A DNA stretch of 64,000 nt from positions 682,001-746,000 of the forward strand of contig NZ_JAAGOY010000004.1 in the NCBI RefSeq assembly GCF_010500215.1. The letters are read 5' to 3'. Shown in pieces: positions 4,139-63,927 of this stretch; positions within the stretch are counted from its first letter, which is position 1; each line of letters begins with the position of its first letter. A program made the position numbers and the translations under genes. The stretch is from Aliiroseovarius sp. PrR006 (GTDB taxonomy: Bacteria; Pseudomonadota; Alphaproteobacteria; Rhodobacterales; Rhodobacteraceae). A model generated the notes under the pieces. It saw nothing but the letters and a program-made list of their open reading frames with translations, made no database searches and had not been told where the DNA came from.

Positions 4139-5787
4139 CCTCTTGTGAGGATATGGGGTGCGATCGATGCGTTGCTACGAACTGTGGCGTAAATCGTGGC
4201 AAAACCCCGACGCCGGCTCAGCCGCCCGTTGGTGAGGACACCAACCCGAATATCCAGAAGAACAGCCAGCGCCGTACCGGCCAACAGCCCTAGGATTGTC
4301 CCGGCAATAACCAACATCTTCTTGTTCGGCGCGATGGGTTTTTCCGGCGGAACCGCCCATTCGATGATCCGCAACGTTGCCGGTGCCGACGCCGCGGTCG
4401 CCGCCGAAACCGACGCGGTCATCAACCGCTCCAGCAAGAGCAGATACTTGCGCTCAAGCGCCTGGTGCGTGCGGCCCAGATCATGGCTAATCTTCATCTT
4501 TAGCGGGATCTTGTCGATCTCGACCCGTTTTTCCACGATCTCGTCAGCGAGTTGCGCAACTTCGGTTTCCTTGGCCGCGATCTTGACTTGGAGCTCCCTC
4601 TGCCGCGCGGCCAGCGTTTCATATTCGGCAGAGCGAACAACGCTCGACACCGTAGTACGGTCGGCCGTTGTCTCTGCCATCTGCTGCTGCAGTGCGGCCA
4701 GTCGGTTGTCCATGTCCTGAATTTCCGGGCTGCTCTGTTGGTAGCGTTCGGACAGGATCTGCCGGTTGACCATCAGCTCCGCGATCTGCTGTTCGTAGGC
4801 CGCGTACACTGGAGATTTCTGCACCTGCCGGGCGGACAGAACCTCTTGGGACACGGTCGCAAGCAGGACGCCATTCGCCTCCAACTCGGTCTTCATCGCC
4901 GCAAGATCACGGTTTGCCTGTGTGTGCATTGCCTGCAGTGTTTCGAAGTGTCCGATCACGATCTTGTCCTTCTCGAACATCAGAAGCATGTCGTTTTCGG
5001 TGAAGTACTGCTCCATTTGGCGTTCGACCAAGGTCAGCTCTTCATGCGCCTTTTCCACCTCCGTCTTGAGGGACGTATAAGCCTGCATCGCTTCTTCCTT
5101 AAAGGTCTCGCGGCGCTGGCGCAGGTATGTTTCGGCCACAGCATTGGCCATCTCGTGAACGCGCGGGGTCGAGGCGCGCACCACCAGAAGTCCAACATTG
5201 CTGTTTCCGACCTGTTCGACGCTTACCCCATCGCGGAAGTTTTTGACTGCGCGACCGACTTCGATCTCTTGTTCCGAGAGGGCGAACGGCGAAGGTTCAC
5301 TGGGATACACCCAGTCCTTGAAATCGCGCCAAGCTTTACCGAGGGCTGATTCCGACCACAGATACGCCGCATACCGAAGTGGCGGATGGTACACGTCATC
5401 ATAGGTCAGACCGAGGTCCTCGACGACCTCTTTCAATACCGGACCGGAGCCAAAGAGCACGATTTCGTCGTTGATCTGGTTGCGCCGAAACACGGCCCAG
5501 GTGGAATAGAAGTTGTCCCGTTCGGCGTCCCGTTCGGCGGACGCGATCAGAGCCACCTCCGCCTGATATGTCGATGGCCAAACGATGATGTAGGTGGCAA
5601 CCATCGCAAGCGTCGCCACGACAACGGAGAAAACCAGAAGCTTGTAGCGCCGCAGCGCCGACCCAACGACGCGCAGCGTCCCGAGCGGATCGAAGCTCTC
5701 CGCTGCCGGATCGTAGGGAACCGCTTCGGCGTAACCGGGCGGCGTTGTTTTGTTCGGAAGGCCAATATGATCGCGTTTATAATTCAT
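4135..5787 (-). CDS. Polysaccharide copolymerase / chain-length determinant (Wzz/GumC type)
   Basis: Inner-membrane polysaccharide copolymerase (550 aa) that sets chain length and couples polymerisation to export. Transmembrane helices flank a long periplasmic part: TM1 at about residues 50-70 and TM2 near 490-512 (VIAGTILGLLAGTALAVLL). Between them is predominantly coiled-coil sequence rich in Glu, Gln and Arg, with the Wzz-type QAEVALIA start. No C-terminal Walker kinase domain is present, so it is the kinase-less (GumC-like) form, and no BY-kinase gene lies nearby. It is coupled to the upstream export lipoprotein gene by a 4-base overlap. Confidence 0.92.
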   Translation of the reverse strand: MNYKRDHIGLPNKTTPPGYAEAVPYDPAAESFDPLGTLRVVGSALRRYKLLVFSVVVATLAMVATYIIVWPSTYQAEVALIASAERDAERDNFYSTWAVFRRNQINDEIVLFGSGPVLKEVVEDLGLTYDDVYHPPLRYAAYLWSESALGKAWRDFKDWVYPSEPSPFALSEQEIEVGRAVKNFRDGVSVEQVGNSNVGLLVVRASTPRVHEMANAVAETYLRQRRETFKEEAMQAYTSLKTEVEKAHEELTLVERQMEQYFTENDMLLMFEKDKIVIGHFETLQAMHTQANRDLAAMKTELEANGVLLATVSQEVLSARQVQKSPVYAAYEQQIAELMVNRQILSERYQQSSPEIQDMDNRLAALQQQMAETTADRTTVSSVVRSAEYETLAARQRELQVKIAAKETEVAQLADEIVEKRVEIDKIPLKMKISHDLGRTHQALERKYLLLLERLMTASVSAATAASAPATLRIIEWAVPPEKPIAPNKKMLVIAGTILGLLAGTALAVLLDIRVGVLTNGRLSRRRGFATIYATVRSNASIAPHILTRG

Positions 5788-55781: not shown

Positions 55782-57008
55782 TCAGAGCACTTGATCTAGA
55801 GCGTCGATCAGCTTGGCGACCTCATCGGCGGTTGTGTAATGCGTGAAGCTGACGCGCAGGACACCGTGCGCAGGATCAACACTCTGTGCCTCAAGCGCCC
55901 GCACAGCATAGAAGTCACCGCCGCCCGCCATGATACCTTTCGGGGCCAGCGCGGCAGCCAGATCCTCGCCCGGAATGGCCGAGGCCAGTGATACGGTCGG
56001 TGCCCGTTTAGCCGCCACCGACGGACCCAGCAATCGGACCGAGTTCTTGGCTGTGGCGTAGTCCAGAAGCGGTTGCAGCAGTGTCACCTCATGATCGCGC
56101 ATCAGAGTGTGGGCCGCGGCGGCCAGCTCTGCCGGGGTTCCAGCCGCCCCATGATGCGTCGCCAGTGCCTCCATATAATCCGCCATCCCGGCCGAGGCCG
56201 CGACCTGAGCGTGGTCCGGGCCAGCGGGGGTAAAGCGCTTATACAAACTGTCCGCGTTGAAATAATGCGCCTGATTGGGCAGAACCTCGCCCAACGCGCG
56301 GCGGATCACCATGATGCCCTGATGCGGGCCATAGGTTTTGTAGGCCGAGAACAGATAGATATCTGCACCCAGATCATCCACGTTCACAAAGCCATGCGGG
56401 GCATAACTGACGCCATCAACGCAGCTATAGGCTCCTGCCGCACGGGCCTTGGCGCATATCGCTTTCACATCATTGATCTCGCCCACCACGTTCGAGCAAT
56501 GCGGGAAGCAGACCAGCTTCACTTTCCCGTCGCCCAATAGATCATCAAGCGCCGCCAGATCCAGATGGCCAGTTTCGGGGTCGATCTGCCATTCGCGGAC
56601 CTCGAACCCCTCGTCGTCCAGACGCCTCCACGGGCCAGAGTTTGCCTCGTGATCCTGATTGGTGACCACAATCGCATCCCCCGGCGAGAGATGCTGGCGG
56701 AACGCTTGTGCCAATACATAAGTGTTCTGCGTGGTCGACGGCCCAAAGGACAGCTCGTCGGTGTCCACACCCATCATGGCCGCGAGGCGGGCACGCGCCT
56801 CGTCCATTTCCTCGCCCGCCAGACGTGATGCCTCGTAAGGTGCATAGGGCTGAACCTTGCGCTGCGTGTAATATCGGGTCAGGCGGTCAATCACGGGCTT
56901 GCAGGTATACGACCCGCCGGCGTTCTCGAAAAACGCCTGTCCCTGCAACGACGGTTCGGAAAAGGCGGGAAATTGCGCGCGCACCCAGTTGATGTCCAGT
57001 TCGGCCAT
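55782..57008 (-). CDS. Aminotransferase class V-fold PLP protein (cysteine desulfurase-like)
   Basis: A 408-aa PLP protein. FFENAGGSYTCKPVIDRL opens it, QDHEANSGPWRRL is the cofactor His region, CVDGVSYAPHG holds the PLP aspartate, and the Schiff-base lysine is in SAYKTYGPHQG (about residue 223). It resembles the CsdA-like group found alone rather than in suf or isc operons. No active-site cysteine loop typical of NifS/IscS is evident, so desulfurase activity is doubtful. Confidence 0.85.
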   Translation of the reverse strand: MAELDINWVRAQFPAFSEPSLQGQAFFENAGGSYTCKPVIDRLTRYYTQRKVQPYAPYEASRLAGEEMDEARARLAAMMGVDTDELSFGPSTTQNTYVLAQAFRQHLSPGDAIVVTNQDHEANSGPWRRLDDEGFEVREWQIDPETGHLDLAALDDLLGDGKVKLVCFPHCSNVVGEINDVKAICAKARAAGAYSCVDGVSYAPHGFVNVDDLGADIYLFSAYKTYGPHQGIMVIRRALGEVLPNQAHYFNADSLYKRFTPAGPDHAQVAASAGMADYMEALATHHGAAGTPAELAAAAHTLMRDHEVTLLQPLLDYATAKNSVRLLGPSVAAKRAPTVSLASAIPGEDLAAALAPKGIMAGGGDFYAVRALEAQSVDPAHGVLRVSFTHYTTADEVAKLIDALDQVL

Positions 57009-57359
57009 TGTCGGCTCCTTTAGTCATGTTTGGGGGGTGCCTATCAGATCAGAGCCACCCCGGATCTGGCAGGTCTTCCAGCCAGCCCGAGGCCTTACCA
57101 ACACCACGGGCAGCCCATATGCGAACACGGACAAGATCTGGCTAAACTGATAGAATTTGGGCGTCAAGAACACCAGAATTGGCATACAATAGCACACCGA
57201 AAATCCGACTCCTTAACGTGTTAAAAAACGACATTTTGTCGCATCTGAACACTATCCTGTCCATTTTGACGAATGTCGCTCAAACCACGTCCTTCAGGCT
57301 CACAAGATGCCATTCGGTCCGTCCGAGTGTGCTAGGTTAAACAACCAAGGACAGGGATT
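57009..57359. promoter_or_regulatory. Divergent promoter region of the BCCT gene
   Basis: A 351-base gap with no supported gene. It holds a short inverted repeat, CGACA-TTT-TGTCG, at 57229-57241, and AAGGACAGGG before the BCCT start serves as ribosome-binding site. Confidence 0.5.
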
Positions 57360-59186
57360 ATGAGTATCAAACCACCCTTCACGGAGCTTCACATTCCGAA
57401 GGCACCGTCAGGATTTTACGAGGGCAACAGCCTTCCGATTGCGCTGATTTCAAAAGGGATCATGGTCGCATTGGTGATCTGGGCACTGGTTTTCCCAGCA
57501 AACGCAAATTCCACCCTCGGCAGCCTGAACTGGCGCCTTCTTGAAGGGTTCAACAGTTTTTACATTATCATCGTAGGCATGTTCCTTTTCTTCCTGGCCA
57601 TCGTGGCCATTCTGCCATCCACCGGCAAACGCAAGATGGGCCTTCCGGGTGAGCAGCCGGAGTTTTCGAACTTTTCGTGGTTCTCGATGATGTTTGGTGC
57701 CGGTCTGGGCGTGGGCCTGATGGTCTTCGCCACCGCCGAGCCGCTGGGCCTGTGGGGATCAAACCCCGTCATCTTGACCGGAGATGTCGCGCCCAACACG
57801 CCGGAAAGCCTGCAGTCGGGATATCGCTATACCTTCCTGCACTACGGGTTCCACGCTTGGGCCATCTACGTGATGACCGGCCTGTCGCTTGCTTACTACG
57901 CCTATACGCGTGACATGCCGCTGACCATCCGCTCGGCTTTGACCCCGCTATTCGGCAAATACGTAAACGGCTTCTTTGGCCATATCGTAGACGTTCTGGG
58001 CGTTGTCGCCACCATTCTGGGTGTGTCGGTGACCATCGGCTTCGGTGTCAGCCAGTTCATTGACGGCCTGTATGCCATCACTGGCATGGAGTGGATGATG
58101 GATATGTCGGGCGACGCGCCTGCACCTGCCAAGGTTGGTCTAGTGACCGGTCTAGTCTGCATCATGGGCCTGTCGATCATCTCGGCGGTCTCGGGTGTTG
58201 GACGTGGGGTGAAGTACCTGTCGAACCTGAACCTGGTTCTGTCGCTGATACTGCTTCTGACCTTCGTGGTCTTTGGTTCGTTCTTCTTTGCGATGTCCAC
58301 CTATGGCGCAGCACTGATCGACTATATCCTGCACATCGTGCAACTGTCCTTCGGCGCCTATGGCCCGCAGGCCGCTGGCGATTTCGCGGCGAACCTGCCC
58401 GAAGCAGCCGCACCGCTGGCAGACACCCTGAAAGGTGGCGCAACCAACGCATGGGGCAGCTATGGCGGCTTCGTGTCGGGTCTGGAAGGCGACGCAGCCG
58501 CCCTGCCCGCAGACGTTCTGCGTGAGGTCTATGCCGCAGGTGAACCCGCCCGTCAGTTCGGCTGGCAGGCTGGCTGGACCACATTCTACTGGGCTTGGTG
58601 GATCGCGTTCTCGCCCTTCGTAGGCCTTTTCCTGGCCCGCATCTCGAAGGGTCGTTCGGTGCGCGAGTTCATCGTGGGCTGTGTATTCGCTCCGGCTCTG
58701 GTCTGCTTTGCCTGGATGACCATCCTTGGCGGCACTGCCATTGATCTGGAGCTGAGCGGCGCAGCGGAAGGTGCCATCATCGGTGCCTCGAACACCTCGA
58801 AGCTTTTCGTCACTCTGGGCGAAATGATCTCGGGACCGTTCCTGTCGATCATCACCGTCATGTGCGTTGTGTTGATCCTGACCTTCCTTGTGACTTCGGC
58901 TGACAGTGGCATCCTTGTGATGAACACCATCATGTCGGGCGGCGAGCAGGAAACCGGCATCAAGCACCGCATCGTCTGGGGTGTCGTATTGACCGCCGTG
59001 ATCGGCACGCTGCTTCTGGCGGCGGGGGAAAACAACCCGATGGACGCGCTGAAAAACGCGATGATCATCGGAGCGCTTCCCTTTACGGCTGTCATGGGGC
59101 TGATGATGGTGTCGCTGACCAAGGCGCTCTACCGCGATGGGCTGCGTGACAAACACGCAAGCACTCAGGCAGAACCGGCTGAGTAA
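57360..59186 (+). CDS. BCCT-family betaine/choline/DMSP-type transporter
   Basis: A 608-aa membrane transporter with about 12 helices. The BCCT hallmarks are FSMMFGAGLGVGLMVFATAE and, near residue 405, TTFYWAWWIAFSPFVGLFLA with the aromatic cage WAWW. An unusual insertion rich in Ala and Glu (residues about 335-385) lies between helices. The N-terminal tail is about 25 residues. It imports quaternary or sulfonium compounds; with dmdA 1.4 kb away, DMSP is a reasonable substrate, but glycine betaine or choline are equally possible. Confidence 0.93.
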   Translation: MSIKPPFTELHIPKAPSGFYEGNSLPIALISKGIMVALVIWALVFPANANSTLGSLNWRLLEGFNSFYIIIVGMFLFFLAIVAILPSTGKRKMGLPGEQPEFSNFSWFSMMFGAGLGVGLMVFATAEPLGLWGSNPVILTGDVAPNTPESLQSGYRYTFLHYGFHAWAIYVMTGLSLAYYAYTRDMPLTIRSALTPLFGKYVNGFFGHIVDVLGVVATILGVSVTIGFGVSQFIDGLYAITGMEWMMDMSGDAPAPAKVGLVTGLVCIMGLSIISAVSGVGRGVKYLSNLNLVLSLILLLTFVVFGSFFFAMSTYGAALIDYILHIVQLSFGAYGPQAAGDFAANLPEAAAPLADTLKGGATNAWGSYGGFVSGLEGDAAALPADVLREVYAAGEPARQFGWQAGWTTFYWAWWIAFSPFVGLFLARISKGRSVREFIVGCVFAPALVCFAWMTILGGTAIDLELSGAAEGAIIGASNTSKLFVTLGEMISGPFLSIITVMCVVLILTFLVTSADSGILVMNTIMSGGEQETGIKHRIVWGVVLTAVIGTLLLAAGENNPMDALKNAMIIGALPFTAVMGLMMVSLTKALYRDGLRDKHASTQAEPAE

Positions 59187-59214
59187 CGTCTCACGCAGAA
59201 TATGAAAACAAAAA

Positions 59215-59248
59215 GCGGCGTCGGATCATTCCGGCGCCGTTTCCTATT
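59215..59248. terminator. Terminator after the BCCT gene, usable both ways
   Basis: CGGCGTCGGA and TCCGGCGCCG (59216-59239) form a 10-bp stem with one G-U pair and a TCAT loop. TTTCC follows on the plus strand and an A run precedes it, giving a T run on the minus strand. It separates convergent transcripts. Confidence 0.7.
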
Positions 59249-59573
59249 TCAGGGCTTGAAGCTCGGCATCATCCGGCCAGCGCTTACGCGCTGCTTCCAG
59301 CAGATCACCGGGATAATAATCGCCCTCGGCCATCGGGTCTTCTCGCAGGACCGCAAGCACAAAGGGCTTCAGCACATCCGCACCGATATCCTGCGCGATC
59401 ATGATGCGCAGGTCTTCGGGGGTAAATTGTCCTAGGGGTTTCTTACGCAGCGACGTCGTCGTCGCCTCGATATAGGACACGCAACAGGCGACCGGCCAGC
59501 GCTGCCCATCTATTTCTTCCAGCGTTTTGTTGGCGAGGGACGCGAGATCGCGCCCCTCATCTTTGTTAGGCAT
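59244..59573 (-). CDS. CdiI_2-like immunity-family protein
   Basis: A 109-aa soluble protein. KKPLGQFTPEDLRIMIAQDI and GDYYPGDLLEA are the conserved core of the contact-dependent-inhibition immunity family CdiI_2. No CdiA or other toxin gene lies nearby. It overlaps the acuI stop by 8 bases and so is co-translated with the DMSP genes. It may be an orphan immunity gene or a protein of the same fold with another role. Confidence 0.7.
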   Translation of the reverse strand: MPNKDEGRDLASLANKTLEEIDGQRWPVACCVSYIEATTTSLRKKPLGQFTPEDLRIMIAQDIGADVLKPFVLAVLREDPMAEGDYYPGDLLEAARKRWPDDAELQALK

Positions 59574-60558
59574 TTACATCCACCACGACACGACCTTTGA
59601 CACCCCCTTTTAGGATATCTGCCCCCAGTCCGGGAAGGTCTTCCAGTGTCGCAGGGGTGATCATGGCGTCCAGCTTGTCCATCGGCAGGTCACTGGCAAT
59701 GCGTTGCCATGCGCGCACACGGTTGTCATAGGGCTGCATGACGCTGTCGATACCAAGAAGGTTCACACCACGCAGCAGGAACGGAATGACGGTCGCGGGC
59801 AGATGCGCGCCACCAGCCAGACCAACAGCCGAGACCGACGCGCCATATTTCATCTGCCCCAGTACACGCGCCAGCATGTCGCCGCCCACGGCATCTACGC
59901 AGCCGGCCCATGTCTCGGCTTCAAGCGGGCGTTTGGTGGTCTCGTTCAGCTCTTCACGGGCAACGATGGTGGTGGCGCCCAGCGACTTCAGATAGTCCGC
60001 CTGATCGGCACGTCCGGTCACTGCGGCAACCTCGTAGCCCAGATTGGCCAAAATGGCAGTGGCAACCGAACCAACGCCGCCGGCAGCCCCGGTCACCAGC
60101 ACCGGCCCCTGCCCCGGCTTCAGACCGTGGTCCTCCAATGCCATCACAGCCAGCATCGAGGTGAAGCCCGCCGTGCCAACCGCCATTGCCTGACGGGTGG
60201 TCAGACCTTCGGGAAGCGGCACCAACTTGCCCGCGTCGATGCGGGCCTTCTGAGAGTAGCCACCCCACGATACTTCGCCCACACGCCAACCGGTCAGCAC
60301 GACCTTGTCGCCGGGCTTGTAGCGGTCGTCATCCGATGCTTCCACGGTGCCCGCATAGTCGATCCCCGGTACGTGAGGATAGTTGCGCACCAGTCCACCG
60401 CCCTTGGCCGACAGGCACAGCCCGTCCTTGTAGTTCACGGTCGAGTATTCCACGGCGACGGTCACATTGCCCTCGGGCAGCGCATCTTCACCGATTTCCT
60501 TGATCGACGCGGATGCCAGCCCCTCGTCGTTCTGTTCCATCACAAGTGCCTTGAACAT
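59566..60558 (-). CDS. acuI: Acrylyl-CoA reductase (AcuI, MDR superfamily)
   Basis: NADPH-dependent zinc-free medium-chain reductase (330 aa, the usual AcuI length) that turns toxic acrylyl-CoA into propionyl-CoA. VEYSTVNYKDGL, YPHVPGIDYAGTVE, GTAGFTSMLAVMALE and the nucleotide motif VTGAAGGVGSVA match the YhdH/AcuI group. It lies 10 bases after dmdA with an AAGGAGACGACG ribosome-binding site. The dmdA-acuI order is the Roseobacter DMSP pattern. Confidence 0.93.
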   Translation of the reverse strand: MFKALVMEQNDEGLASASIKEIGEDALPEGNVTVAVEYSTVNYKDGLCLSAKGGGLVRNYPHVPGIDYAGTVEASDDDRYKPGDKVVLTGWRVGEVSWGGYSQKARIDAGKLVPLPEGLTTRQAMAVGTAGFTSMLAVMALEDHGLKPGQGPVLVTGAAGGVGSVATAILANLGYEVAAVTGRADQADYLKSLGATTIVAREELNETTKRPLEAETWAGCVDAVGGDMLARVLGQMKYGASVSAVGLAGGAHLPATVIPFLLRGVNLLGIDSVMQPYDNRVRAWQRIASDLPMDKLDAMITPATLEDLPGLGADILKGGVKGRVVVDVNA

Positions 60559-60568
60559 CGTCGTCTCC

Positions 60569-61669
60569 TTAAATCCAAAAAGTGTCATAGACGGTCGCCG
60601 CACGCGGCCCGTCAGGTGTCATCACATCAAGCTCGGTGCCCGTGTCCCAATGGGTCATCCGCACCATGCCGATCGCGACACCGGTATTGAAATCAGGCGA
60701 GTTCGCGGCCGAGGTCACCTGACCCACTTGCCGATCCCCGTCCATCAAGGGCCACGCCCGATCACATGGCGGCACACCACCCAAAATCTCGATCGCGCGC
60801 ACTTGCTGCACGGGGCCTTCTTTGGCCACGCGCAACAACGCATCACGCCCCACGCAGCCAAGGGCGCTTTGGGTTGAACAGAACCGCCCCAACCCAGCTT
60901 CATGCGGAGTGTTTTCGCGGGTCATGTCGTTGCCATAGGACAGAAGCCCGCCTTCGACGCGCTCGATCCCGTTGGGGCAGCCGGCATGCACATCCATGCT
61001 CTTGCCCGCCTCCATCAGAGCATTCCACAGCGGCATACCAATATCGGATCCTTCGACGTAGATCTCGAACCCGCCCTGTTTGGAATAGCCCGAGCGCGCC
61101 ACGACCAGGTTGCGCCCTTGAAACTCCAGCCGCTTATAGCGGAAGAACCGGATGTCGCGCACGGCATCGCCAAAGACCGCCGCGGCCAGATCGTCCGATT
61201 TCGGCCCCTGAATGGCCAAGGGCGAGACGTCTGGTTCATCCACCAGAACGTCCAACCGGAACCCATAGGCCAGCCCTTTCACCCACATGATCAGGTCGCT
61301 GTCTGCAATCGAAATCCAGAAGCGGTCCTCGTCCAGTTTCACCGCCACCGGGTCGTTCAGCATCCCACCGGTCTCGTCGACCATGGGGACATAGAAACAC
61401 TGCCCATCCTGCATCTTTGACAGATCACGCGGGGTGAGCATCTGGATTAAACGGGCCGCATCCGGGCCGCGCACCTCGACCTGACGTTCGCAGGCAACGT
61501 CCCAGACTTGCACTGCGTCTTTGAGGTGGCGATAGTCTTCCTCTACCGACCGAAAGACGGTCGGTAGCAGCATGTGATTGTACACCGTGTACCCTTTGAC
61601 CCCAGCGGCTTCGACGCCGTCTGAGAAAGGGGTGCGCCGCAGGCGGCGGGACGGAGAGATCAGGGCCAT
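60569..61669 (-). CDS. dmdA: Dimethylsulfoniopropionate demethylase
   Basis: GcvT-fold enzyme (366 aa) moving a methyl group from DMSP to tetrahydrofolate and giving methylmercaptopropionate. RTPFSDGVEAAGVKGYTVYNHM, VWDVACERQVEV and GCPNGIERVEGGLLSYGNDM with TPHEAGLGRF distinguish DmdA from glycine-cleavage GcvT. ATG 61669 is the family start. It is preceded by DUF1326 and DUF2182 genes and followed by acuI, probably in one transcript from the promoter at 63116-63204. Confidence 0.94.
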   Translation of the reverse strand: MALISPSRRLRRTPFSDGVEAAGVKGYTVYNHMLLPTVFRSVEEDYRHLKDAVQVWDVACERQVEVRGPDAARLIQMLTPRDLSKMQDGQCFYVPMVDETGGMLNDPVAVKLDEDRFWISIADSDLIMWVKGLAYGFRLDVLVDEPDVSPLAIQGPKSDDLAAAVFGDAVRDIRFFRYKRLEFQGRNLVVARSGYSKQGGFEIYVEGSDIGMPLWNALMEAGKSMDVHAGCPNGIERVEGGLLSYGNDMTRENTPHEAGLGRFCSTQSALGCVGRDALLRVAKEGPVQQVRAIEILGGVPPCDRAWPLMDGDRQVGQVTSAANSPDFNTGVAIGMVRMTHWDTGTELDVMTPDGPRAATVYDTFWI

Positions 61670-61701
61670 GGATCGCGCTCCTGTGGGGTCCTCCGGCCGC
61701 C

Positions 61702-62334
61702 TTAGCGACCGGGGCCTTTCCAATCGATCTGGCAGATCTCGGCAGATTTGCCGTCGAAATCCCAGACGCGACCAAAGGCGCGCACGCGGGCCTCGTCAGC
61801 TTTGGCGACGGTGATGTCCGGTCCCATCCAGTAGTTGGTGTTGGTGATTACCTGATCCGCACCGCCCTTACCCGGCACCGGCGTGACCGAGCCGCGAATG
61901 GCTTTGCCAACGATCAGACGGCGGGTGTTGCCTTCGGTTTCGAACGACACGGGTGCGCGCTCGGCACCCAGGAATTCGCTGACCAGCATCTTGAACAAAC
62001 CGGTGGTGCCTTTGGCCGCGCCGGTGAAGATGTGGCACAGCGCTTCGAACGCCTCGTCCGAGGCGCGCTCGTCGATATAGGCCGCTGCTTTCCAGTTGCC
62101 ACGCGCCATGCGACCCGGGATCTCCAGCAGCAGACCGACGTTCAGACCCGCAAGGTCCACGTCACCATACTGGCCACTGTCGATGCGAATGCCCGCCCAG
62201 CCCATGCAGTAGCCTTCGGTCGGCGGGTGATCGCCCAGGCTGACCACGCAGGGGCAAAACACCGTACAGTTACAGTTGAGGATCAGCTCCCCTTTGATGG
62301 TCCATTCGACCGTGCCAATTTGCGATCCGTCCAT
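61702..62334 (-). CDS. DUF1326-family protein
   Basis: A 210-aa soluble protein of unknown function. The cysteine cluster LILNCNCTVFCPCVVSLGDHP (about residues 17-37, CNC then CPC) suggests metal or thiol binding, and YCMGWAGIRIDSG follows. DUF1326 genes are usually paired with DUF2182, as here (1-base gap). Placed before dmdA, it could serve a methanethiol-, sulfide- or copper-related function; this is inference. Confidence 0.88.
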   Translation of the reverse strand: MDGSQIGTVEWTIKGELILNCNCTVFCPCVVSLGDHPPTEGYCMGWAGIRIDSGQYGDVDLAGLNVGLLLEIPGRMARGNWKAAAYIDERASDEAFEALCHIFTGAAKGTTGLFKMLVSEFLGAERAPVSFETEGNTRRLIVGKAIRGSVTPVPGKGGADQVITNTNYWMGPDITVAKADEARVRAFGRVWDFDGKSAEICQIDWKGPGR

Positions 62335-62335
62335 G

Positions 62336-63115
62336 TTATCCTCCCTGGACAAGCGCCACGATCCCGCCCGCGATCAGCGCCCAGCCCAAGGGGCGGGTCA
62401 GATAGCGGCCCAGATCGGGCAGTTTTTCAAAAATCATGATGAGTGTGGCGAGCCCCATGAAGGCAAGGTTCATCACCCCGCCGACGAAGCCCAGAAGCAT
62501 CAACGCCCAGCAGCAGCCAAGGCAGATTGCGCCCAGTCGCAGGCCCAGCGCGACCGCGTTCCAACGTGTTTCGCGCCAGTATTGCATGAAGAACGTCATC
62601 GGCAGACGGCATTGGCTGAGGCAGCTGTCCTTCAGAGACGAGAATTGATACACCCCTGCCCCGATCAGCAATCCGCCCGTCAGCCACGGCGAAACACTCT
62701 GGCCCAGCGGCGATAGAAGCCCAGCGCGGAACAGCACAAGCTGTCCGGCAGCGGCGATGGCTGCAAACCCCAGCCAGATGGCCAGATAGCCCGCGACCAA
62801 TTCGGCAAACCCTTGGCGCGTTCCGGCGCCCGAGGCGATCATGTCGTCATAGGTGGCAAAGGTCGGCAGGGCCGTGGGGGCCATCATCGCGGCGGACATC
62901 ACCGCCCACATGGCAAACAGCCCCAGGAACCCAGCCTTGTCAGGCTCCACCACGCAGAGCGAGCGCCAGAAGTCCGCGCCATAGATGCGCGACAGTTCCA
63001 ATGCGTCGGGCGGCAACGCCATCGTGTAAAGGGCAACCCATCCCACAAGGATCAGGGCAAACAGCGCCAGCCAATGTGGTGCCCCCATCGTTCTGATCCT
63101 TGACGCGACCGACAT
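62336..63115 (-). CDS. DUF2182-family membrane protein
   Basis: A 259-aa membrane protein with about seven helices. FAMWAVMSAAMMAPTALP is the DUF2182 signature (methionines lining a helix), and SSLKDSCLSQCRLPM with CLGCCWALMLLGFVGGVMN adds conserved cysteines, all hinting at metal handling. It heads the operon DUF2182-DUF1326-dmdA-acuI. ATG 63115 follows ATGGAGGCAAC. Confidence 0.88.
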   Translation of the reverse strand: MSVASRIRTMGAPHWLALFALILVGWVALYTMALPPDALELSRIYGADFWRSLCVVEPDKAGFLGLFAMWAVMSAAMMAPTALPTFATYDDMIASGAGTRQGFAELVAGYLAIWLGFAAIAAAGQLVLFRAGLLSPLGQSVSPWLTGGLLIGAGVYQFSSLKDSCLSQCRLPMTFFMQYWRETRWNAVALGLRLGAICLGCCWALMLLGFVGGVMNLAFMGLATLIMIFEKLPDLGRYLTRPLGWALIAGGIVALVQGG

Positions 63116-63145
63116 GTTGCCTCCATCTTGCGAGTCGGGATTGAT

Positions 63146-63190
63146 AATGTCTGACAATTGCCGACAGGGCAAGTAAATGTCTGACAATTG
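63146..63190. promoter_or_regulatory. Two identical GntR-type sites in the dmdA operon promoter
   Basis: AATGTCTGACAATTG occurs at 63146-63160 and again at 63176-63190, exactly 30 bases apart. Each contains the palindrome TGTC-T-GACA. They lie between the divergent DUF2182 gene (start 63115) and GntR gene (start 63205). Same-face spacing fits a pair of bound dimers. Confidence 0.8.
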
Positions 63191-63204
63191 GAAAGTGACG
63201 CGGC

Positions 63205-63927
63205 GTGAAAACAGACCTGAACGAAAACGAAGACCTCTCGACCCAGATCGCGGAAGCCATTCGCGATGCCATTATCGAAGGCAGCCTGATCGTCGATCAA
63301 CGCCTGCCGTCTGAGGCAGAACTGTGCGAGAAATTCGACGTGGGCCGGTCTACCGTACGTGAAGCCCTGAAACGACTGGCCGCGCAAAACCTGATCCGCA
63401 CCCAGCGCGGAGCGGCAGGCGGGGCGTTCGTCAACCGCATGTCCTTTGAAGAGGCCTATGATCAGCAGATCACCACCTCGACCCTGCTTCTGTCGATGAA
63501 CCGCGTGGATTTCGAGACGGCGTGCGAGGCCCGCTACGCCCTAGAACGCTCCTGCGCGCCACTCTCGGCCCAGCGCCGCACCCCCGACCAACTGGCCACC
63601 ATGCGGGCAGAAATCCACCGCCAATCGCAGCCCGGCCTGACCGACGAGGCATTCTGCGCCTCAGACGTGGCCTTCCACCGCGCGCTGGTCGATGGCGCGC
63701 GCAATCCGGTGCTGTCCTATCAGCTGGCGGGGGCCGTCGAGGCGATGCAGCCCTTGATGAACATGATCACCTATACGCAGAGGGATCGGGACAGGATCAT
63801 CGCGCTGCACAGTCAGATCGCAGATGCACTGGAAGCGAAGGACGCCGCAGCCGCCAATGCACGTCTGATCGATCTAGAAACCGAAACCTTAAAGCTTGCC
63901 AAAAGCGCCTTCGCGGCCCGCCGCTGA
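63205..63927 (+). CDS. GntR-family regulator, FCD subfamily, probable regulator of the dmdA operon
   Basis: A 240-aa regulator starting at GTG 63205. The winged helix is LSTQIAEAIRDAIIEGSLI, RLPSEAELCEKFDVGRSTVR and RTQRGAAGGAFV. The FCD ligand domain has metal-type residues in SDVAFHRALVDGARNPVL and a late RDRIIALHSQIADAL. It is divergent from the operon that ends with dmdA-acuI, with twin sites between. Acrylate or a DMSP product as inducer would fit known DMSP control, but this is inference. Confidence 0.9.
   Translation: MKTDLNENEDLSTQIAEAIRDAIIEGSLIVDQRLPSEAELCEKFDVGRSTVREALKRLAAQNLIRTQRGAAGGAFVNRMSFEEAYDQQITTSTLLLSMNRVDFETACEARYALERSCAPLSAQRRTPDQLATMRAEIHRQSQPGLTDEAFCASDVAFHRALVDGARNPVLSYQLAGAVEAMQPLMNMITYTQRDRDRIIALHSQIADALEAKDAAAANARLIDLETETLKLAKSAFAARR

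Follow-up and report, generated by a model that had tools for sequence, protein, structure and literature searches.

The stretch of DNA analysed here, i.e., 64,000 nucleotides from Aliiroseovarius sp. PrR006 referred to over its whole length as the window, carries towards its right end a set of genes for the catabolism of dimethylsulfoniopropionate (DMSP), namely dmdA and acuI, which are headed by a gene pair of the families DUF2182 and DUF1326 and faced by a divergent gntR gene with two putative operators in between. The balance between demethylation and cleavage of DMSP decides whether its sulfur is kept in the food web or lost as dimethyl sulfide (DMS). Family annotation covered positions 55782-63927 of the window, and the locus comprises the following features:

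63205-63927, plus strand: gntR, GntR-type regulator with an FCD ligand domain, 240 aa, GTG start (Pfam PF00392 and PF07729)
63176-63190: putative operator 2, the same 15-mer as operator 1 and 30 bp away from it, core kept in relatives
63146-63160: putative operator 1, AATGTCTGACAATTG, with the core TGTCTGACA, kept in relatives
63132-63137: GAGTCG element between operator and DUF2182, in inverted orientation compared with most relatives
62336-63115, minus strand: DUF2182/PpoB2-family membrane protein, 259 aa (Pfam PF09948, 208 bits)
61702-62334, minus strand: DUF1326 protein, 210 aa, with a CxCxxxCPC...C motif (Pfam PF07040, 178 bits)
60569-61669, minus strand: dmdA, DMSP demethylase, 366 aa (NCBIfam NF009133; PDB 3tfh, E 4.8e-105)
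59566-60558, minus strand: acuI, acrylyl-CoA reductase, 330 aa (TIGR02823; PDB 5gxf AcuI, E 1.3e-170)
59244-59573, minus strand: CdiI_3-family small protein, 109 aa (PF18616, 85 bits, cut-off 28)

On the minus strand, the genes follow each other in the order DUF2182, DUF1326, dmdA, acuI and CdiI_3 with gaps of 1, 32, 10, and -8 bp, which bears out the earlier, sequence-only reading of this DNA in that no gap from DUF2182 to the last gene exceeds 33 bases, the largest being 32 bp; the single operon it proposed would fit both this tight packing and the conservation described below. The divergent gntR is separated from DUF2182 by 89 bp, which hold both 15-mers. The enzyme identities it had given likewise stand, as DmdA scores 663 bits against the NF009133 equivalog cut-off of 410, and AcuI, narrowly below the NF051456 equivalog cut-off (421 bits for 440), passes that of TIGR02823 for YhdH/AcuI acrylyl-CoA reductases (437 bits for 297) and has "Acrylyl-CoA reductase AcuI" (5gxf) as its best match among solved structures. 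The last gene, formerly read as CdiI_2-like, matches by its profile the contact-dependent inhibition (CDI) immunity family CdiI_3 rather than CdiI_2. With 67 bits for PF00392 (cut-off 27) and 72 bits for PF07729 (cut-off 24.3), the regulator is a GntR protein of the FCD subfamily, of the same domain make-up as the NanR, LldR, and PdhR models; among the NCBIfam matches listed none is over its cut-off, the best being PRK03837 NanR with 104 bits of 260. The 208 bits of DUF2182 compare with a cut-off of 28.7 for PF09948, a Pfam entry now titled "PpoB2, Copper chaperone." In the Pfam scan, no known cuproenzyme was found among the family matches of the operon genes and, with PADLOC, CdiI_3, DUF1326, and DUF2182 remained without a match.

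The arrangement is conserved. From a DmdA scan of public genomes returning 581 relatives, with those of Aliiroseovarius the closest, the best 80 were kept, some of their loci ending early at contig ends; among these, DUF1326 lies upstream of dmdA in 69, GntR is present in 68 and acuI in 72. The interval between DUF1326 and dmdA exceeds 500 bp in 46/69 relatives; open reading frames were listed for 8 of these 46 long intervals, and by eye a DinB-like gene occupies seven of them (e.g., L044:5498-6001) and an acyl-CoA-ligase-like gene the eighth (L061). The four DinB candidates tested all match PF05163, a gene the window does not have at this place. DinB-family proteins include thiol transferases, which would suit acrylate chemistry.

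As for the intergenic region, the two identical 15-mers 30 bases apart pointed out earlier are indeed there (AATGTCTGACAATTG, starting at 63146 and 63176), both containing TGTCNGACA, and on the plus strand of the 64-kb window no 15-mer other than AATGTCTGACAATTG recurs within 200 bp; allowing up to two mismatches, the pattern gives two matches in the window for 0.09 expected, a number reached by 1 of 100 shuffles. Conservation was assessed in a pool made of the 80 DmdA loci plus 40 hand-chosen stretches (from a 120-genome sample and from genome G397), from which 10/120 were excluded by requiring a DmdA or AcuI match above 300 bits and two more were dropped as cut. In the tally of GntR-proximal regions, only distinct regions were counted (L023 and L024 are identical in sequence): exact TGTCNGACA precedes the GntR gene in 75/83, a site with at most one mismatch in 83/83, and at least two core sites (up to one mismatch) in 77/83. 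As such, the locus presents the trait expected of FCD-subfamily GntR regulators, i.e., a conserved palindrome by their own gene. Neighbouring sites are 15 bp apart in 52 pairs and mainly 30-37 bp apart in the remainder, the class to which the window belongs. The operators co-vary with the regulator gene, since an exact core lies within 200 bp before the first operon gene in 70/84 loci with a divergent GntR (0.25 in shuffles) and in 1/24 GntR-less loci (0.0 in shuffles), the figures with up to one mismatch being 78/84 (shuffles 6.0) versus 2/24 (shuffles 1.7). The only GntR-less locus with an exact core, L051, retains an N-terminal GntR remnant. Among the 14/84 GntR loci in which the 200 bp before the operon hold no exact core, the sites sit near gntR and farther from the operon in L084, L150, L156, L158, L176, and L179.

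On the scale of genomes, the bare core occurs in 123 copies in the window's genome for 36 of the backward control, and the stricter pattern WWTGTCWGACAWW in four copies, two of them at the operon, for none of the control. In ten other genomes, WWTGTCWGACAWW was found in 1, 1, 1, 1, 1, 1, 2, 2, 3, and 4 copies, the backward control giving 0-4, so that the copy number is unremarkable and the location of the copies is what counts. In five genomes of the genus of Ruegeria pomeroyi, WWTGTCWGACAWW occurs exactly once per genome, always in the region between GntR and operon, and in G373, a congener of the window's genome, both of its two copies are in that same region.

A connection with published induction data comes from genome G397, in which AcuI shows 100% identity, along 330 residues, to 5gxf, a structure we take to be that of the R. 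pomeroyi DSS-3 protein, and G397 is taken as DSS-3 because of this identity. The available excerpts of the work on the DSS-3 operon (Todd et al., 2012; PMC3338564), on which all statements about that paper rest, describe a 350-bp and a 1.4-kb fragment that the PstI and NsiI sites of G397 fit. At this locus (L149), GntR, two palindromes, dmdA, and acuI are found. According to these excerpts, reporters built on these two fragments show dmdA and acuI of DSS-3 to be induced about 10- to 14-fold by 5 mM DMSP or acrylate, methylmercaptopropionate (MMPA) giving no induction. The inducible 350-bp fragment, whose end is the PstI site within dmdA, spans roughly L149:4757-5106. Both palindromes fall inside it, an exact one at 4814 and a second, with a single mismatch, at 4829; gntR, whose start lies at about 4760, is not carried in full. 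With the palindromes on the inducible fragment, the acrylate response of DSS-3 can be read as a release of GntR; acrylate or acryloyl-CoA would be a better guess for the ligand than DMSP itself, since it fits the companion gene acuI. No regulator of dmdA is named for the R. pomeroyi operon in the available excerpts of PMC3338564, nor in those of PMC12366255 and PMC8163506, and none of GntR type is named in the accessible parts of the open-access literature searched, a search that excludes subscription papers. Excerpts of PMC4334477, PMC7876524, and PMC4770636 mention GntR with dmdA and DMSP in other connections, and that of PMC7487153, on dmdA evolution, refers to Gonzalez et al. (2019) for the conservation of a dmdA operon.

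Compared with known systems, the window shares with the DSS-3 operon the order dmdA then acuI and a setting made of a divergent GntR and upstream TGTCNGACA palindromes, that operon being induced by DMSP and acrylate (PMC3338564, excerpts); the DSS-3 locus differs in lacking DUF2182, DUF1326, and CdiI_3, and in having a DmdA that shares 65% identity with that of the window. The AcuR-regulated operon, in the account of the same excerpts, is also acrylate-responsive with a regulator beside acuI, but combines the TetR-family AcuR with a DMSP lyase, where the window has a GntR/FCD protein with a demethylase.

The company kept by each gene was surveyed in 120 genomes, one for each of 120 genera of the family, taking as neighbours genes within 6 kb and as thresholds E <= 1e-120 for AcuI, E <= 1e-30 for GntR and the profile cut-off for dmdA. 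DUF1326 was found in 57/120 genomes, and DUF2182 lies within 1.5 kb of it in 66/67 places. These 67 places are near acuI in 44 cases, dmdA in 37 and GntR in 35, while the 51 GntR places are near acuI in 43, dmdA in 35 and DUF1326 in 35, with acuI or dmdA in 46/51. The commonest partner of both GntR and the DUF pair is thus acuI, ahead of dmdA. Conversely, the 54 dmdA places have the DUF pair nearby in 37, GntR in 35, acuI in 37, and none of these in 12; the 99 acuI places have none of the other three in 44. The eight GntR places without acuI comprise three with dmdA, three in which the GntR is just 37-47% identical, one at an apparent contig end with a DUF2182 fragment (G098) and one facing a DinB gene (G088). 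In 11/67 DUF1326 places, and likewise in 11 GntR places, acuI is present with no dmdA adjoining; in one such case (G014), pieces of a broken DmdA-like gene lie in between. In another genome, G003 (L150:4028-7499), GntR faces by eye an acyl-CoA-dehydrogenase-like gene followed by DinB and acuI, and no dmdA is in the cluster.

Regarding the DUF pair itself, five cysteines of DUF1326 are invariant in 63 sequences (C21, C23, C27, C29, C43), as are M69, M73, M77, M78, C165, C169, C198, C201, C202, and M206 of DUF2182 in 70 sequences. The predicted model of DUF1326 (pLDDT 95) resembles acetoacetate decarboxylases and MppR, with a Foldseek E-value of 1.7e-5, TM-scores of about 0.4 and 6-11% identity; structural Z-scores are about 10-11 over 158-166 residues at 3.7-4.3 Å, reaching 11.2 (root-mean-square deviation 4.2 over 166 residues), and the comparison with 3bgt_D gives 10.8 (3.8 over 159 residues; TM-score about 0.4). 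A fold of the acetoacetate-decarboxylase kind is tentatively predicted; at such identity and TM-score the match speaks for the fold class at best. A profile search of PDB sequences gave no match for DUF1326 and for DUF2182 two weak ones to a V-ATPase subunit. The DUF2182 model (pLDDT 89) is almost wholly helical, and its comparison with solved structures yielded no usable match (Foldseek best E 0.73; best Z 5.8), which is not proof of a new fold. One relative is PpoB2 of Marinomonas mediterranea (COG5486), after which PF09948, matched by the window's DUF2182, is named; it differs in its operon, shared with the tyrosinase PpoB1 in whose copper supply it is involved, in the available part of PMC2855505, where the partner in the window is DUF1326 and no tyrosinase is present. 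Based on the Cys/Met motifs and on this one relative, our best guess is that the pair forms a metal module, probably for Cu(I). Neither DUF2182 nor DUF1326 appears under these numbers in any paper of the open-access literature searched, subscription papers lying outside that search.

Altogether, the locus is likely to be a dmdA-acuI operon of the Rhodobacteraceae with a two-gene metal module at its head and its own divergent GntR/FCD regulator. GntR would bind the two TGTCNGACA palindromes and repress its own gene together with the operon, until a product of DMSP cleavage, i.e., acrylate or acryloyl-CoA, releases it; DmdA would then send DMSP into demethylation and AcuI reduce acryloyl-CoA to propionyl-CoA, while DUF2182 and DUF1326 would work together at the inner membrane on a metal, Cu(I) being the likeliest, and assist the acrylate/acryloyl-CoA branch instead of methanethiol chemistry. 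Judging from the sequences compared, it is very probable that this GntR regulates dmdA-acuI in response to acrylate/DMSP, and the suggestion of the sequence-only reading that it is the DMSP regulator gains good support from operators tracking the GntR gene, from the strict site found just once in each of five related genomes and there at this very place, and from operators lying inside the published acrylate/DMSP-inducible fragment. The enzyme core dmdA-acuI is known; less ordinary would be the dedicated GntR, a site that appears private to the operon in several genomes, and a conserved, metal-like DUF module frequently tied to acuI. With one strict site per genome in the genus of R. pomeroyi, the switch is directly testable, and DUF2182-DUF1326, found in close to half of the genera sampled, gains a physiological setting, namely acuI. 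More speculatively, and with low confidence, the pair may be a new kind of module, in which a membrane Met/Cys protein and a cytosolic barrel of acetoacetate-decarboxylase-like fold with a CxCxxxCPC-C metal site would give the cell, or an enzyme, protection against the chemistry of acrylate/acryloyl-CoA, co-induced with acuI by an acryloyl-CoA-sensing GntR, DMSP demethylation having joined the acrylate-defence cassette later.

Several points weigh against this interpretation. The frequency of strict sites alone is uninformative (1-4 versus 0-4 for the control in ten genomes), palindromes of this kind are typical of GntR/FCD proteins generally, and the relatives share ancestry, meaning that the counts are non-independent (the 120-genome sample is one per genus; the pool of loci is not). 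Helical phasing of the twin sites was considered and rejected, spacings of 15, 30, 31, 33, and 35 bp misfitting whole turns of the helix. GntR relatives 50-57% identical (L154, L155) have a single one-mismatch site only, and two further strict sites of the window's genome lie before MFS and ABC transporter genes; a wider regulon suggested by these was considered and set aside, neither being found in the congener G373, in which only the two operon copies were detected. On the side of the pair, dmdA, acuI, and GntR are all missing from the surroundings of 19/67 DUF1326 places, which points to an independent life of the pair, and 6/37 dmdA places with the pair have no such GntR nearby, indicating that another regulator can serve. 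A second DUF1326-DUF2182 pair of the window's genome (C7:500882-502301), whose DUF1326 is 26% identical to the first, is not surrounded by dmdA, acuI or such a GntR, and the pair can thus stand alone.

It could be argued that GntR controls just itself and the DUF pair, dmdA-acuI being under a promoter and a regulator of its own and the neighbourhood accidental. Such a view draws on the presence of the pair without GntR in 6/54 dmdA places and on the distance of more than 500 bp often separating DUF1326 from dmdA in the relatives, but this interval is filled by genes in all eight cases examined. Besides, GntR and operators precede other first genes with no DUF pair in between, i.e., dmdA in DSS-3, G394, and G038, dinB-dmdA in G100, acuI in G044 and G075, and in G003 the acyl-CoA-dehydrogenase-like gene followed by dinB and acuI; the acrylate-inducible DSS-3 fragment, as delimited in the excerpts of PMC3338564, bears the palindromes but is free of DUF genes. 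Only 32 bp separate DUF1326 from the start of dmdA in the window, and a separate promoter there was considered and not found in a consensus scan, which covers the sigma-70 type only and is weak evidence in this group of bacteria. We hold accidental neighbourhood to be improbable. Taking instead the predicted fold at face value, DUF1326 might be an enzyme, its acetoacetate-decarboxylase-like barrel acting on a small acrylate- or acyl-derived molecule through catalytic cysteines and DUF2182 being its transporter or its partner in the membrane. This would agree with the structural matches (Foldseek E 1.7e-5; Z about 10-11) and with the frequent proximity of the pair to acuI (44/67). Acetoacetate decarboxylase, however, uses a Schiff-base lysine, and no lysine is invariant or nearly so in the 63 DUF1326 sequences; moreover, a metal would suit the five invariant N-terminal cysteines as well as the Met/Cys motifs seen in the partner, and the decarboxylase matches, given their identity and TM-score, reach the fold class at best. 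An enzymatic role is on this account rather unlikely, if somewhat less so than the accidental neighbourhood.

The sequence-only reading had offered "methanethiol or metal handling" as the job of the pair, of which the metal part remains the best reading and the methanethiol part is not supported. MtoX, the methanethiol oxidase, is a copper enzyme, and the pair could be imagined to load it with copper or to handle methanethiol-bound metal. The family PF05694, to which MtoX belongs, was found in 41/120 genomes and is commoner in those with a cassette-associated pair (28/48 versus 13/72, p = 1e-5); by eye, a member also stands beside the cassette in three genomes, following gntR at a distance of 156 bp in G043 and dmdA at 72 bp in G066, and lying 1.8 kb away from gntR in G003. 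As PF05694 extends to distant members too, it overcounts MtoX. The association goes with dmdA, PF05694 being present in 30/49 dmdA genomes versus 11/71 others; within the 49 dmdA genomes, it was found in 24/38 with the pair versus 6/11 without it (p = 0.73, small numbers), and among cassette-pair genomes without a dmdA over the cut-off in 4/10. Copper loading of MtoX as the main job of the pair is thus unsupported, no association of the pair with PF05694 being left once dmdA is fixed. No PF05694 match was obtained in the window's genome, and the 11/67 places with the pair by acuI and no adjacent dmdA argue in the same direction. At the dmdA loci of G397, taken as DSS-3, and of G394, the pair is absent, the search in both genomes having been confined to that locus, yet DSS-3 has mtoX (PMC9769926, in its available part); the other three genomes of R. 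pomeroyi's genus include the pair in their dmdA locus. On the whole, a methanethiol-related role of the pair is weakly supported and, like the accidental neighbourhood, quite improbable.

Further observations concern the surroundings of these elements. Of the two strict sites of the window's genome outside the operon, one (L085:7001-7013; G000:C4:1689000-1689012) is by eye just before an MFS transporter gene with a divergent gene for an AFG1-like ATPase, and the other (L086:7049-7061; G000:C7:73348-73360) ahead of genes for an ABC transporter and next to a creatinase-like M24 gene. The second DUF pair (L169:4847-6335) follows, again by eye, the gene of a large regulator-like protein with a SARP-like N-terminal part. 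A GAGTC(G) element occurs 16-18 bp past the last operator core in 44/89 distinct regions and within 45 bp in 53/89, for 3.9 expected from composition shuffles, and is possibly part of the promoter or the site of a second regulator. Among five loci of the genus of R. pomeroyi, L190-L192 combine the DUF pair with a DmdA that shares 76-77% identity with that of the window, and L149 (taken as DSS-3) and L189 lack the pair and have a DmdA 65% identical to it; the gntR-to-acuI segment may have been exchanged within this genus. CdiI_3 lies directly 3' of acuI in 6/80 relatives, as well as in L193, and has probably been added to the operon locally. Finally, a BCCT transporter gene (608 aa, window 57360-59186) converges on the operon, and BCCT-like matches recur near dmdA-acuI in relatives; this transporter may be a DMSP importer.

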